A stretch of 64,000 nt of DNA, taken from NCBI RefSeq assembly GCF_003665435.1, contig NZ_CP023408.1:806001-870000 (forward strand), given 5' to 3'. This document shows, one piece after another, positions 4,288 through 39,085 of this stretch. Every line of letters starts with the position of its first letter. Positions within the stretch are counted from its first letter, which is position 1. The stretch comes from Streptomyces fungicidicus (GTDB lineage: Bacteria > Actinomycetota > Actinomycetes > Streptomycetales > Streptomycetaceae). Position numbers and translations under genes: made by a program. The notes beneath the pieces were generated by a model that made no database searches, had not been told where the DNA came from, and saw only the letters and a program-made list of their open reading frames with translations.

Positions 4288-4872
4288 ATGTCACCGCGCG
4301 GAGTGGCGACGCCCGACGTACGCGAGCTGCTGTTCGCGGCCGCCGAGCGCGTCGTGGAGAGAGAGGGGCCCGGCGCGCTCACCAGCCGGTCCGTCACGAC
4401 CGAAGCGGGCTGCGCCAAGGGGCTGTTGCACGCGCATTTCGCGGGGTTCGACGAGTTCGTCGCCGAACTCTGTCTCGACCGGTTCGCCCGGACGGCGGTG
4501 AAGGCGCGGGCCCTGTCGGGGCTCGCCGGGCAGGGCACCGTGGCGCGCAATCTCGAGGCCGTCGCCCTCGCGCTGTTCGACCCCGGCGGTCCCGCCCTCT
4601 CCGGCCTGGCCATGACCCGCCCCGCCGCCGCGCTGCGTATCCGCGAGGCACTGGAAGGCGGCGCGCCCGGTTTCACCGCGATCCAGGAGGCCATCACCGG
4701 CTATCTGCAGGCCGAGCGGCGACTCGGCAGGGTGGCGGAGACCGTCGATCCCGGCACCGTGGCCCTCGCCGTCGTCGGAACCGCCCACCACCTCCTGATG
4801 ACCAACTGGCCCGGCGCACCCGACCCACGACCCTCCATGAAGCGCGTGGTGACCGCGCTGGTGGCCGGCTGA
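4288..4872 (+). CDS. TetR family transcriptional regulator
   Basis: This 194-residue protein has an N-terminal TetR helix-turn-helix. The pattern runs from VRELLFAAAERVVEREG through LTSRSVTTEAGCAKGLLHAHF to FDEFVAEL. The C-terminal ligand domain is not conserved enough to name an inducer. The start ATG has a GAGAGG site a few bases upstream. It is divergent from the methyltransferase at 3298-4164, with two matching palindromes between them, and probably represses both itself and that gene. Confidence 0.85.
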   Translation: MSPRGVATPDVRELLFAAAERVVEREGPGALTSRSVTTEAGCAKGLLHAHFAGFDEFVAELCLDRFARTAVKARALSGLAGQGTVARNLEAVALALFDPGGPALSGLAMTRPAAALRIREALEGGAPGFTAIQEAITGYLQAERRLGRVAETVDPGTVALAVVGTAHHLLMTNWPGAPDPRPSMKRVVTALVAG

Positions 4873-30965: not shown

Positions 30966-32999
30966 TCATCCCGCTGCCGCGCGCTCCTTGGACGGTGTCC
31001 GGCGTGTTGTCGGGGTGTCCAGGTGGACGACCACGGTGGTGTAGAAGCGGTGCACGGCGTCGTCAACGCTGCGGATGAAGCCGGTCTCGGCGTTGCCGCG
31101 GCCGCTCCCCATGCTCTTGAGCAGGGACAGGAGGAACCCGGTGATCCTGGCGTTGTCCTTGGGCAGCAGGTCCGCCGGTTCGGGTCGCAACCGCTCCAGC
31201 GTCCCGCGCGGACCTCCGCTTTCGCCGTCGACGAGGGTCTCGATGTGCAGGTCCGCCGGTGCCTCGGCCAGGAGCCGGACGAGCCGCTTTGCCCGGCTCA
31301 GCGGGTAGCCCTGCTCGGGGGCGGGGACGGCGATGCCGGTGCGCAGTTTGCCCGTGCGCAGGTCGGCGCCGACGGTCAGGACGCCGGGGGTGCCGTCGAT
31401 GCGCAGCTCCGCCTGAAGCCGCCCGTCGAGGCAGAGCTGATCGGCCAGGCGGGCCCGGCGCTCCTTGGGGTCCGTTCCGCGCTTGGCGCGCTGGACGGGC
31501 AGCACCTTCTGTCCGAGTTCGCCGCCCAGCCTGAGGCAGACCTGGCGGATGAGCCGTTCCCAGTTCTCGACCACCTCCAGCGCCCGGGCGTCGCCCTGAC
31601 AGAGGGTTTCGTCGTCGATGCCGTTGCGGACGGGGACCCAGGCGGGGCCCATGTTCTGGAAGCCGTGGCAGCCGGAGTTCTCGTGCTGCAGGTAGTGCAG
31701 CAGTTCCTGCAGGAGCCAGGCGTGCGCGGCGTTGCCCACTCCCTCATGCCTGATCAGCAGCTGTGCCTGGTGGGCGACTTCGGCCCAGGACAGGTGCCAG
31801 AGGGCCACCTTGTGCTTCCGCCGCTTGTCGATCTTGACGTCGACGAGCGGGCTGCCCTCCAGCGCGACGTCGTTCGTCAGCGTGATCACGGCCTCGTAGC
31901 CGCGGCGCGCGGCGATGTCCATGTACGCCTGCACCTGGTCGGCCTTGAGTACGTTGCCGTTGGTCTTCGTCTCGACCAGCGCGGTCCACAACTTGCCGGC
32001 CCGCTCCACGCGAATCACCCCGTCCGGGCGACGCGGAGTGTCACCGTGAGGCAGGGAGACCTCGGTGAACGTCTCCATACGACCCGCCGGAGCCCCGAAC
32101 CCCGCGGTGAGCCTCCTGCTGAACTCCGGCACCTGCGCCATCACCGACAGCAACACCGAGGTGGCACGCATCTCGCGATCCCGGTCGCTTTTGAGCGCCG
32201 ACACCGGGAAAAGCCTGGCCTGCCGCCAGGAGTCGTTCTCCGCCAAGGTCTTCTTGACCGTCCTGGGAAGGGTGACCTTCTTCTTGGCGGTGCGAGGACG
32301 GGTGGCCGGCTTCCTCGGCTCGCCGGCCTCCGCCTCAGGCCGGCGAGGAGCAGGGACGGCCTCCAGCGGCACCTGCCCGGTCGGCTCCCCGGCCGGCGCG
32401 CGATCCGCCGCATCCGCCTGCTCGTCGGCCGCGTCCCCGTCGAGCGCGGCTTCCGCCTCCGTGGCCGCGTCGTCCTCGATGTCGACCCCGAAGTCCGTCG
32501 CCAACCCCGCGAGACCGGTCTCGTAGCCCTGCCCGACGGCTCGGAACTTCCATCCCTCACCCCGCCGGTAGAGCTCGCCGAAGATGACCGCCGTCACCGA
32601 GCCGGCGTCGTCGACGGCGAACCGCAGGAGGCTCTCGCCGGCCGCGTCGGCCAGCGTGATCCTCACGTCCTCCAGTTCACCGAAACGAGCTTCGCCGTAC
32701 CTGCTCGCGGCGACGACGATCCGGTCGATCCCGGCCGGCACCGCGGTGAGGTCGAAGCTGATCCGGTCCTCACTGCCGTCCGCCGTCGGCGTCTTCCCCA
32801 GAAGCTGCACGCTTCCGTCAGCGGCCACCGGATGGTTGTAGAAGTAGAAGTCGCCGTCGCTGCGCACCTTGCCGTTCGCGTCCAGCAGTAGGACCGACAC
32901 ATCCGCGTCGCCCTCGCCGGTAGGGCTGACCCAGCCCAGACTGACGATCACCGAACCGATGTCGTCGCTCAGGTCCGCCAGGGCTACATTCGAACCCAT
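30966..32999 (-). CDS. TerD domain protein fused to a PD-(D/E)xK nuclease-like domain
   Basis: This 677-residue protein has an N-terminal TerD domain (about 1-172) including GWVSPTGEGDADVSVLLLDA, DGDFYFYN and FGELYRRGEGWKFRAVGQGY, the acidic calcium-binding type. A 60-residue Ala/Glu/Pro/Lys-rich linker follows. The C-terminal two thirds contains PDGVI (Pro 325-Asp 326) and, 17 residues on, VETK (Glu 343, Lys 345), the core of a PD-(D/E)xK nuclease fold, then QVQAYMDIAARRGYEAVITLT. TerD proteins belong to stress and defence-linked Ter systems. The fusion suggests DNA cleavage or binding during stress, which is inference. ATG 32999 has GGAA upstream. Confidence 0.75.
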   Translation of the reverse strand: MGSNVALADLSDDIGSVIVSLGWVSPTGEGDADVSVLLLDANGKVRSDGDFYFYNHPVAADGSVQLLGKTPTADGSEDRISFDLTAVPAGIDRIVVAASRYGEARFGELEDVRITLADAAGESLLRFAVDDAGSVTAVIFGELYRRGEGWKFRAVGQGYETGLAGLATDFGVDIEDDAATEAEAALDGDAADEQADAADRAPAGEPTGQVPLEAVPAPRRPEAEAGEPRKPATRPRTAKKKVTLPRTVKKTLAENDSWRQARLFPVSALKSDRDREMRATSVLLSVMAQVPEFSRRLTAGFGAPAGRMETFTEVSLPHGDTPRRPDGVIRVERAGKLWTALVETKTNGNVLKADQVQAYMDIAARRGYEAVITLTNDVALEGSPLVDVKIDKRRKHKVALWHLSWAEVAHQAQLLIRHEGVGNAAHAWLLQELLHYLQHENSGCHGFQNMGPAWVPVRNGIDDETLCQGDARALEVVENWERLIRQVCLRLGGELGQKVLPVQRAKRGTDPKERRARLADQLCLDGRLQAELRIDGTPGVLTVGADLRTGKLRTGIAVPAPEQGYPLSRAKRLVRLLAEAPADLHIETLVDGESGGPRGTLERLRPEPADLLPKDNARITGFLLSLLKSMGSGRGNAETGFIRSVDDAVHRFYTTVVVHLDTPTTRRTPSKERAAAG

Positions 33000-33355
33000 G
33001 ATCATTTCCTGCACAAAGCCCCCCAACGGCGCACCCTGGGCATGCGGGAGAACCCGCCCCATCTGTCTCATGCGCGACACAAGATGACGAGTCGCGCGGA
33101 GAAGACTGTAATACGCACCGAGCTCGCTCGTGGAGGTTCTGTGAAGCGGATACGTAACAGCGGTGTCCCGGCGGCACGTCACGGCGCAGTCCGGACGGCT
33201 CAGGTCTTCCGTTCTCCACCGTGGCCCCGGCGGTCCTCGGGTGCTCGTCGTCTTCCGTCGGCTGGGTCGAGTCCGCTGCTGGAGCGCGTGGGCAAGACGC
33301 GCCAGACGTCGACAGAGCGCCGATTCGGGCGCGGCGCGTGCCGTGCCGGCCGGGA
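33000..33355. other. Intergenic region upstream of the TerD fusion
   Basis: These 356 bases lie between the HU-like gene's stop and the TerD gene's start, both on the minus strand. The reading frame of the TerD gene stays open through it, but codon bias and composition look non-coding, and a clear GGAA site supports the downstream start. I see no terminator, RNA gene or repeat. A promoter for the TerD gene presumably lies here. Confidence 0.4.
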
Positions 33356-36192: not shown

Positions 36193-38448
36193 TCAGTCCT
36201 GGGACCGCGCGGAACTGGTCAAACTCTCCCGCAACCAGTCGTGGCGGAACTGGTAGGCCGGCCCCGCCGCTCTCAGGAGGTTGCGGCGCCGGGCGTCCTC
36301 GAGAAAGGACACCAGACGCACCGGGGTGCCCTCACTGATGGAGAGCTGGACGGCGGAGAGAGCGGCGGCGACGCCCAGATTTCCGACCGGCCCGGCGAAG
36401 AGGCAGGCCCACAGCCCGGCAATGCCACCGACCACGACGCCCTTCCAGACGCCGTACTCGTAGGCCGCGAGCGAGCCGGCGAACACCGCGATGGCGACTC
36501 CCGTCAGGAGACCGAGTGCCAGCCTCAGCCCGATGTGGTGCCGCCACACGGCCTGCGGACTGACCGCCCGGGTTTCCGTCACAGGGCGCCGGCTGAGACG
36601 GTCCCTGAGTTCGTCGTACTGGGGTCCTGAACCGGTGCCGAGGATGGTCCCGGCCACCAGTTTGTAGCCGCGGCTGCTCACCAGCGTCGTGCCGAATCCG
36701 AGCGGAAGTGCGGCGAGATAGGCAAGCCAGGCAGGCAACGGGTCGCTCCCGGGCAGTTGGAAAGCCAACCAGGACGTGGTTCCCGACAACAGCCAGATGA
36801 AGGCGCCCAAGGCCACGGCGCCGGGCGGGAAGATGTCGCGCCACCCGGCGCTGGGGAGGGGCTGCTCGTCGCTGAGCTCCGCATGACGCTGGGCGGCGAG
36901 TAAGCCTCCGACGATTGCGCAGGGGGGCGCGAGCAGACACGCCCACACCGGGCCGGTCGTCCCCCACAGCGTGAAGAGGCCGCTCACTCCGTACAGCAGA
37001 CCGATGACGGCCCCGACGAGGATCACCCTGGGCCGGCGGTCCGTCCAGGTGGGGATGTCCCACCAGCGCAGCTCACGGTCTGCCTGGTTCCGGGTGACTT
37101 GCGTGGCGAGGTAGCGCAGCGTCCGTTCCGCGGTCTCGGATGAGTACCGTGGGCGCGGGCGTCCCCGTCTCGGGGTGTACGCGGCCGAGACCAACTGGTC
37201 CAGGAGGTGGTCCTGGAGTGACCGGGTGCTGGGAAAGCGGACGGTGTCCAGCAGTTCGTCCACAGGACGTCCACCGGTGTCGGCGTAGATGTCCCGGACC
37301 AGGCTTACCGCCAGCGGACTGGCCAACGTCTCGGTCACCGCACTGTCGGGTTCGTCCTGAAGTCTGCGGTTGAGTTCCTGCCAGCCGGGCGGGGCCGGAG
37401 TCGGCAGGGCATTCATCAGATAGGCGCTGGCGTCCTTGGCGCACACCGGCTGGATCTCCAGCGCCGCGGCTCCGCTCAGCCGCTGCCGCCTGCCAGTGAG
37501 AGCCCTGGCCCGCGAAACCACCACAACACGGAAGCTGGCCAACTCCAACGCGCCCAACATGGCGGCGCGTTGCTTCCCACCGACCTCGTCGAGCCCGTCC
37601 AGGAACAGCGAGATCCGCCCGTCCGCCAGCAGCTCCCTCGCCCGTACGACCCCTCCTCTGTTCCGGAAAAGGGTGTACTCGCGGGAGATCCGGCCTGCCG
37701 CCCAGGCGGTCACATCCTCCTCATCTGGATCCCAGCCAAAGGGCGTGAGCATCACCGGCACGGGGATATGGGGCCTTACCTCGGGCGCCGCCTTCGCACG
37801 GTGCTTGAGCGCCTCCCGGATCAGCAGCACCGCGGCAGACGTCTTGCCCACCGCCGGCTCACCCACGAGCAGCAGTCGACCGGAAGCCAACCCACCGTAG
37901 ACCGCGTGCAGTGCGGGCAGAGCTCCGCCCCGGTGCAGAATGTCGCGGGTGACTGCGGCGCACCCGGGCAGTGGGGCGAAACGGGCGCGGCCGTCGTCGG
38001 CGATCGCCCCTTCGATCCGGCCCGCCACTCTGCGTTTGGTCACCTGCCATCGCACCGGAAGGGGCGCAGGCTCCAAGAGCCGCCGCAGCGTGGCCTCCTC
38101 CTCCCACTCCTTGCGCACGGCCTTGGCCAGCTCATCGGCGGCGACGTCCAGCGGGGGGCGTGGGGCGGCGGACTGTTGCACCTGGATGAACTTGCGGATC
38201 AACAGGTACCCGGTATTGGCCAAGCCGCCGCTGTGGGCAGTGGCGTTCCCGGTACGGCTCACGTGCACCGAGCCTGCGGGCCCTGAGTCAGGTCCGGCAT
38301 AGTCGGGTACCGCGGTGGCGTCTTCGCGGGGGCCGGCATCGCAGACTTCAGGCGCGGCTGCCTTCGCCCCTTGGCTTTCGGCTGCGGCCTCGGAGAAGAC
38401 ACCAGGGGCGCCGTCCGGGGTACGGCGCCGACGAGGCCATCTCACCAT
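36193..38448 (-). CDS. NACHT-type STAND NTPase with C-terminal membrane domain
   Basis: This 751-residue NLR-like ATPase has a low-complexity N-terminus with motif VHVSRTGNATAHSGGLANTG at 61-80. Walker A is GEPAVGKT at 196-203, Walker B is SLFLDGLDEV at 280-289 with the acidic pair of NACHT domains, and a VVVSRARALTG sensor segment follows. From about 475 to 700 there are some six to eight hydrophobic helices in place of a repeat sensor domain. The end is FRHDWLRESL. One TTA codon (Leu 516, 36901-36903) suggests bldA-dependent expression. The upstream gene encodes a small membrane protein with two copies of the same N-terminal motif. Defence or signalling is inference. Confidence 0.85.
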   Translation of the reverse strand: MVRWPRRRRTPDGAPGVFSEAAAESQGAKAAAPEVCDAGPREDATAVPDYAGPDSGPAGSVHVSRTGNATAHSGGLANTGYLLIRKFIQVQQSAAPRPPLDVAADELAKAVRKEWEEEATLRRLLEPAPLPVRWQVTKRRVAGRIEGAIADDGRARFAPLPGCAAVTRDILHRGGALPALHAVYGGLASGRLLLVGEPAVGKTSAAVLLIREALKHRAKAAPEVRPHIPVPVMLTPFGWDPDEEDVTAWAAGRISREYTLFRNRGGVVRARELLADGRISLFLDGLDEVGGKQRAAMLGALELASFRVVVVSRARALTGRRQRLSGAAALEIQPVCAKDASAYLMNALPTPAPPGWQELNRRLQDEPDSAVTETLASPLAVSLVRDIYADTGGRPVDELLDTVRFPSTRSLQDHLLDQLVSAAYTPRRGRPRPRYSSETAERTLRYLATQVTRNQADRELRWWDIPTWTDRRPRVILVGAVIGLLYGVSGLFTLWGTTGPVWACLLAPPCAIVGGLLAAQRHAELSDEQPLPSAGWRDIFPPGAVALGAFIWLLSGTTSWLAFQLPGSDPLPAWLAYLAALPLGFGTTLVSSRGYKLVAGTILGTGSGPQYDELRDRLSRRPVTETRAVSPQAVWRHHIGLRLALGLLTGVAIAVFAGSLAAYEYGVWKGVVVGGIAGLWACLFAGPVGNLGVAAALSAVQLSISEGTPVRLVSFLEDARRRNLLRAAGPAYQFRHDWLRESLTSSARSQD

Positions 38449-38489
38449 CGGCCAGAACCTCCCGCATGCTGTGGCCTTCGAGGGCCCGG

Positions 38490-38855
38490 TCAGCTGAAGT
38501 CGATACCCGAATTCGCGTTACTGCCGGTACCGTCCGAGGTGGCGTCGCCGGTTCGCTCCACCCGAATCGACCCATTCCCGGCTTCCCGCGGGCGTCGCAC
38601 GCCGGATGACGCCCGGCCTCCACCGGTCGCCTCGGCCCTCCCCGTATCGGTCACGACAATCCCGCCTTGCGAGTGGGAGGTTGAGGACTGCAACAATGCC
38701 CAGACCAGGGCCGCGACGCCAGTGGCGCCCTGGACCGACGCGGCAACCAACTGGCCGGTATCCGGATTGTCCAGCAGCCAGAAGAACGGCGTCGATGCCG
38801 TCAGCACGACCGCGACCACGATGACCGTGATCTTCCTGCCTCGCGACATGGTCAC
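38490..38855 (-). CDS. Small membrane protein with two signalling-motif copies
   Basis: This 121-residue protein starts with GTG after GGGAGGG. It has two hydrophobic helices (about 8-28 and 34-56) with a short loop, then a soluble tail with two copies of a Gly/Asn/Thr-rich motif. Copy A is at 66-86 (VVTDTGRAEATGGGRASSGV) and copy B at 97-118 (RVERTGDATSDGTGSNANSG). The neighbouring NACHT gene carries a third copy. The stop is 41 bases from the NACHT start, so they are co-transcribed. By analogy with amyloid-type motif pairs of bacterial NLR systems, homotypic motif contact could link the two. This is unproven. Confidence 0.65.
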   Translation of the reverse strand: MTMSRGRKITVIVVAVVLTASTPFFWLLDNPDTGQLVAASVQGATGVAALVWALLQSSTSHSQGGIVVTDTGRAEATGGGRASSGVRRPREAGNGSIRVERTGDATSDGTGSNANSGIDFS

Positions 38856-39085
38856 TCGTCCCTCCCACCAGCCGACGAACGCCTGCCTTCAGCAGCATCG
38901 GACGAACTCCGCCGGTACGCAAGGACGCCGCCGCACGTCCACCGGTTCCTACCAACTCAGAGCTCAAATAGAAGACTTGCCAGACAATCCGATCGCATCG
39001 AGGAGCTCGTCATTCCCTGCACAATCGCCCAGCCCGGCCTGGATGTTCCGGCTCACTCACCACGCGCCGCAGCTGTGCTCACCGC

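Follow-up and report, generated by a model that had tools for sequence, protein, structure and literature searches.

Does a short motif shared by a NACHT-type ATPase and the small membrane protein encoded next to it mark the two as partners in signalling? The question is raised by an operon in a 64,000-nucleotide stretch of the Streptomyces fungicidicus genome, hereafter the window. A preliminary description of this DNA had proposed an amyloid-type pair of the BASS kind, located in the membrane. The best reading of the analysis reported here is a BASS-like signalling pair in which a two-helix membrane effector replaces the BELL domain and the NACHT receptor carries a membrane domain of its own. 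In evolution the shared motif behaves as a plug does to its socket, which suggests a prion-like switch for death or defence. No description of this pair was found in the open literature searched.

Gene layout and protein architecture

Both genes lie on the minus strand (Table 1), and the start of P0001, the NACHT protein, is 41 nt downstream of P0002, the small membrane protein. An RBS-like GGGAGGG is found at 38860-38866, 10 nt ahead of the P0002 ATG at 38849, and a second such sequence, GGGAGG, precedes P0001 at 38458-38463; no promoter or terminator consensus was found around the operon. Also near the pair (window 30966-33290, minus strand) is a gene whose product combines a TerD domain (5.8e-48) with a long extension at the C-terminus. 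The open reading frames and the three motif copies were found where the preliminary description had placed them.

Table 1. Features of the P0002-P0001 operon, in window coordinates
Feature	Position	Strand	Basis or remark
P0002, small membrane protein, predicted effector	38490..38855	-	ATG start likelier at 38849
Two-helix transmembrane hairpin, P0002 residues 5-61	38673..38843	-	AF2 helices 5-29, 34-61; hydropathy
P0002 motif copy 1, residues 65-88 (GIVVTDTGRAEATGGGRASSGVRR)	38592..38663	-	34.8 bits, window-free profile
P0002 motif copy 2, residues 96-120 (SIRVERTGDATSDGTGSNANSGIDF)	38496..38570	-	34.5 bits, window-free profile
P0001, NACHT-type STAND ATPase with membrane domain, 751 aa	36193..38448	-	
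Degenerate extra motif copy, P0001 residues 31-52	38293..38358	-	alignment only
P0001 motif, residues 60-82 (SVHVSRTGNATAHSGGLANTGYL)	38203..38271	-	22.5 bits, window-free effector-side profile
Sharp junction of two ancestries, end of receptor motif region	38152..38165 (~38,150-38,165)	.	
NACHT ATPase region, P0001 residues 100-455	37084..38151	-	Walker A GEPAVGKTS, Walker B LFLDGLDE
Membrane region, P0001 residues 471-706, about seven predicted helices	36331..37038	-	AF2; hydropathy
Conserved C-terminal segment, P0001 residues 708-737 (YQFRH 732-736)	36238..36327	-	

The placing of P0002 in the membrane by the preliminary description agrees with the prediction of a two-helix hairpin throughout its family: all 47 homologues in the fetched loci have two hydrophobic helices, usually followed by two motif copies. 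In the AF2 model each copy forms three short strands (66-69, 74-76 and 81-87 in the first; 97-100, 105-107 and 113-119 in the second) at a pLDDT of about 83-91. Mean net charge over 46 family sequences is +1.3 at the N-terminus and -1.2 in the loop, a bias that predicts both ends of P0002 to be cytoplasmic and would thereby put its tail within possible reach of the receptor motif. Identity of P0002 with BELL was considered and rejected, as a profile comparison with the BELL alignment aligned the motif tails only and not the domain. Above the Pfam cut-offs P0001 had no match (RHIM, PF12721, included) and P0002 none to RHIM; PADLOC matched neither protein. The phage set held no relatives of P0002, and a direct link to phages was not found either. 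In a subgroup of seven loci (L057, L058, L211, L212, L214, L218 and L220) several residues are missing in parallel from both tandem copies of the effector; the receptors of this subgroup retain a full-length copy.

P0001 has the Walker A motif, the D-G-x-D-E form of Walker B and the NLR fold by which NACHT/NLR (STAND) proteins are recognised. The best structural matches of its AF2 model were NLRP3 (Z 16.3), NLRC4 (16.2) and NOD2 (15.7), and Pfam NACHT (PF05729) was matched by 15 of the 21 family members, at best with 1.2e-12. A membrane C-terminus had been attributed to this protein, which is right as far as the membrane helices go, hydropathy supporting the region in P0001 and 20 relatives. 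They do not form a simple tail, but lie before a conserved C-terminal segment in which G729, Y732, F734, R735 and H736 are invariant across 21 sequences, and which is likely to be where the NLR winged helix ends. The P0001 model aligned with NLRP3 as far as residue 734 of the former and 528 of the latter, so that the membrane domain is apparently set within the winged-helix region, at a point deduced from the model. A large NACHT family with such a multi-helix membrane domain before the YQFRH segment, represented by L092-L131, was found in 73 of 150 Streptomyces genomes (E <= 1e-10), a count that includes a few matches to the N-terminus alone.

The first 94 residues of P0001, with its single motif copy, were modelled as disordered. 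Orthologous pairs of the operon occur at L233, where the receptor is 80% identical to P0001, and at L234 (74%). In the alignment, an intact motif copy of L233 (TDTGDATARDGGIAVSGY) and a partly intact one of L234 face P0001 residues 31-52, which look like a decayed extra copy. Across the window, L233 and L234, pN was 0.10-0.16 in the P0001 motif versus 0.25-0.37 in residues 1-52, both being small segments. The motif is a conserved island inside a fast-changing, predicted-disordered N-terminus.

The shared motif and its distribution

The motif common to P0001 and P0002 is real. Direct BLASTP of the two proteins gave E = 0.008, and the best local score of P0001 against the P0002 copies, 50, was reached in none of 2000 whole-protein and none of 5000 N-terminal shuffles. 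A profile built from the effector-side copies of other loci, and so free of the window, was scanned over 10,204 ORFs; it recovered all three copies with the scores given in Table 1 (iE 4e-5 for P0001), and the first clearly unrelated ORF followed at about 11 bits. In the whole home genome of 7.67 Mb the three copies were the sole matches before E = 0.94, in a search whose motif model contains the window copies and which tests specificity, not independence. Low complexity or chance similarity was rejected on the profile, shuffle and whole-genome results. The family consensus, xxxVxxTGxAxAxGGGxAxTGxxx, is invariant only at G8, A18 and G21. The formula first given for the motif, R-T-G-D/N-A-T-x-x-G-G-x-x-A-N-S/T-G, therefore described a genuine motif too strictly, copy 1 of P0002 reading DTGRAEATGGGRASSG. 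In composition the motif is rich in Gly, Ala, Thr and Ser, with few Q, N or bulky hydrophobic residues, unlike RHIM. The motifs of cognate partners did not resemble each other significantly more than those of mismatched partners did (p = 0.085), and co-evolution of cognate pairs is not claimed.

A sample of 150 genomes from the genus, Streptomyces, gave relatives of P0002 in 30, one relative being from Embleya. Effectors with a motif tail were collected (n=49); for 32 the adjacent downstream same-strand ORF scores for the motif, and about 44, by score and reading by eye, adjoin a motif-bearing gene, usually a STAND ATPase. These pairs include a divergent arrangement at L225 and a reversed one at L224. 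Beside two effectors, L033 and L229, no motif-bearing neighbour was seen; L059 is decayed, and the partner at L062 is not recognisable as STAND. Indiscriminate occurrence of the motif in unrelated proteins, which the preliminary description had named as a refutation, was looked for, and the motif is not scattered in this way. Eighty of 12,562 ORFs scored at least 12 bits, about three of them outside a recognised pair (L226, L228 and the BELL-like L049:699-1655), and a motif scan of 101 genomes gave 44 matches, of which 42 fell within or adjoined a recognised pair or effector (exceptions, G067 and G049:C1:9969057). A spread through the phylum was considered and set aside: in genomes outside the Streptomyces-like ones the weak matches, at E of about 0.001-0.01, fell mostly in short ORFs and were chance-like, with the exception of G346, from the same class.

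The receptors that carry the motif are built on different cores. Among the partners are proteins of the NB-ARC/TPR type (L046, L036) and of the NACHT type (L038, L061 and the window); two (L034, L224) matched the PADLOC model STAND_TPR, and in the regex typing 18 of 53 receptors were unclassified. At L227 the partner is a VMAP-C protein (PF20028, 2e-36) that has its motif copy close to the N-terminus, and this pair of a two-TM motif effector and VMAP-C (L227:3074-4849 and 4471-4845) ties the motif to vWA-MoxR conflict systems. Three further loci deserve mention. The L230 pair, on the S. anulatus plasmid NZ_CP108693 (effector 75% identical), has cas1e/cas2e about 4 kb away with a transposase between. 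At L051 the receptor frame is apparently broken, the motif copies lying in separate ORF fragments, and a transposase-like ORF lies downstream of the effector. The 982-aa ORF L226:4290-7235 (minus strand), which Pfam did not match, has a hydrophobic segment and, close to the C-terminus, two copies of the motif; it may represent another type of effector.

Exchange of modules between operons

The strongest evidence for the pair comes from an exchange of modules. Among the sampled relatives of the P0001 core that lack this motif, the six closest (L092-L097) are 45-58% identical to it and fall with it into one well-supported clade. Upstream of each lies a BELL-like gene, and here the receptor N-terminus and the BELL C-terminus share a RHIM-like sequence, GNTFHGPTAxQxGDxN, equalled in none of 1000 shuffles in each locus; the BELL tail of L094 also gave a weak Pfam RHIM hint (E 0.17). 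Conversely, a BELL domain at L036 (45% identity, 7e-25 to the BELL of L093) ends in the TG.A motif of the window. The N-terminal side of P0001 has other relations: residues 1-99 share about 51-54% identity with the NB-ARC receptors of L043 and L044, and the effectors of these two loci share about 75% with P0002. This double kinship was also seen in the DNA by blastn, the segment from about 38,949 to 38,152 matching the NB-ARC operons L043/L044 at 74-75% identity and that from about 38,165 to 36,226 matching the BELL-NACHT operons L092-L095 at 68-70%. An effector and receptor-motif cassette has therefore been fused, at a sharp joint, to a core taken from the other kind of receptor. Each of the three parts (effector domain, motif, ATPase core) can thus be exchanged, the sharing of a motif by neighbours being kept. 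The contiguity of the effector gene with the receptor N-terminus could alone explain why the two travel together. A more distant NACHT-membrane receptor, L124:1782-4355, shares with its upstream protein a third motif, GDVxNxxxGG...GRDF (0 of 1000 shuffles); for L122 a shared motif was unsupported, 621 of 1000 shuffles being equally good.

A proposed mechanism, its rivals and known systems

The pairing of motifs beyond chance, their restriction to pairs, the variety of receptor cores, the swap with its sharp junction, the constraint on the motif, the modelled strands and tandem copies that recall HET-s, and the NLR fold all support a signalling pair; the scarcity of Q and N, the p of 0.085, the weak match to HET-s, the contiguity of effector gene and receptor N-terminus, the unpaired effectors of L033 and L229 and the lack of relatives in the phage set count against it. 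On balance P0001 is probably a membrane-held NLR receptor and P0002 the executioner, acting through motif templating, a reading to which we give a probability of about 0.6. At rest, the disordered N-terminus of P0001 would hold its motif away from other copies. A trigger would lead to ATP-driven oligomerisation of the NACHT domain, as expected from its family, and the N-terminal motifs would cluster into a beta-arch or beta-solenoid template. The cytoplasmic tail of P0002 would be recruited to this template, its two tandem copies stacking onto it. The hairpins gathered in this way could perturb or permeabilise the membrane, and the infected or damaged hyphal compartment would be killed or halted. 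Motif contact, amyloid templating, membrane damage, an immune role and phage defence are what we infer for this pair, and for every step after motif sharing the precedent is that of BASS and HET-S.

The most serious rival, unlikely though it seems, keeps the same pair but takes the motif to be no self-propagating amyloid but a small folded homotypic adaptor, a finite beta-solenoid or beta-sheet assembly comparable to the effector-associated domains found in bacterial conflict systems. The ordering of the tandem P0002 copies as strands with good confidence by AF2, the motif on the VMAP-C protein of L227, itself a conflict-system component, and the poverty in Q/N would all suit such an adaptor. 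They have to be weighed against the exchange for a RHIM-like motif, relatives of which have been reported to be amyloids (PMC7889193), the disorder modelled for the single P0001 copy, and the length of the repeats, two copies of ~21 aa being very short for a stable globular domain. A clearly less probable arrangement would reverse the roles, P0002 being a membrane tether or inhibitor whose tail motifs fix the receptor motif at the membrane and so keep the NACHT protein off, and P0001, with its membrane domain, the toxic part. The roughly seven membrane helices of P0001 could serve such a part, and the leading place, held by the effector gene in nearly all operons, is one often taken by inhibitor genes; most partners, however, are of the NB-ARC/TPR type without obvious effector domains and need an output module, and in homologous operons the same position is filled by BELL, a proposed membrane-targeting death domain (PMC7889193). 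That the similarity merely reflects the composition of Gly/Ala/Thr-rich disordered linkers in high-GC actinobacterial proteins is very hard to credit, since a direct BLASTP E of just 0.008 and a Gly/Ala-rich motif are set against P0001 and P0002 as sole matches in a high-GC genome of 7.7 Mb, the 42 of 44 matches that fall within or adjoin recognised pairs or effectors, and a pN that is low in the motif relative to its own flanks.

A bolder and distinctly tentative proposal is that the motif is an amyloid-signalling family outside BASS1-10 and works wholly at the membrane, a NACHT protein with a membrane domain in its winged-helix region templating a minimal two-helix effector that forms pores or depolarises, and that receptor cores and motif/effector cassettes recombine at a fixed joint. 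Were this true, swaps of prion-like plugs would be the means by which bacteria reconnect immune sensors with death effectors. The pair would also widen amyloid-type immune signalling beyond BELL to very small two-helix proteins of ~120 residues annotated just as hypothetical. The natural domain swap, one NACHT core with two unrelated motifs and two unrelated membrane effectors and a joint placed within ~15 bases, makes the question of whether the motif decides the executioner of bacterial NLRs directly testable by chimeras.

BASS pairs (Dyrka et al. 2020, as described in PMC7889193 and PMC8086366) consist of NLR proteins with BELL effectors. BELL is their defining association, and CHAT and TIR have also been reported. 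The operon resembles them in its adjacent or overlapping genes, its ~20-25 aa motif at the receptor N-terminus and the effector C-terminus, within the 20-40 aa by which such pairs are defined, its STAND/NLR receptor and its streptomycete host. It is further linked to them by the receptor core shared with the BELL pairs L092-L097 and by the BELL-like protein of L036 that bears the window motif. The earlier assignment to the BASS type is thus borne out in the motif-sharing neighbours, their recurrence and the exchange with a RHIM-like motif, and fails in the effector, since the P0002 family has a two-helix hairpin without detectable BELL similarity; this effector and the membrane-bearing NACHT protein differ from the BELL scheme as it is set out in those papers. 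The window motif may already have a BASS number. RHIM/BASS3-type motifs occupy the same slot on the homologous receptors L092-L097, but the window motif follows TG.A.A..GG.A.TG with no VQVG core, and the RHIM (I/V)Q(I/V/L)G core is absent from its consensus.

In fungal HET-S/NWD2, the effector acts on membranes and the receptor copy of its motif is called R0 (PMC7889193). As there, an effector with two C-terminal tandem pseudo-repeats of ~21 aa, with beta-strands predicted in each, adjoins a NACHT protein with one N-terminal copy. There is no sequence similarity, the P0002 hairpin is not HeLo, P0001 lacks WD repeats, and many relatives of this receptor have two motif copies. The HET-s prion domain (2RNM), of the HET-s/HRAM class defined by a two-rung beta-solenoid built from two pseudo-repeats, was among just three Foldseek matches, at E 8.4, and comparison with HET-s(218-289) gave no significant structural match (VIA Z 2.3 over 55 residues, rmsd 5.4), a likeness to be taken as a hint, not evidence. 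With bNACHT systems (PMC12169576) the pair has in common a NACHT ATPase with an NLR fold; it differs from them in a receptor with membrane helices and in an output module that is placed on a separate gene and reached through the motif.
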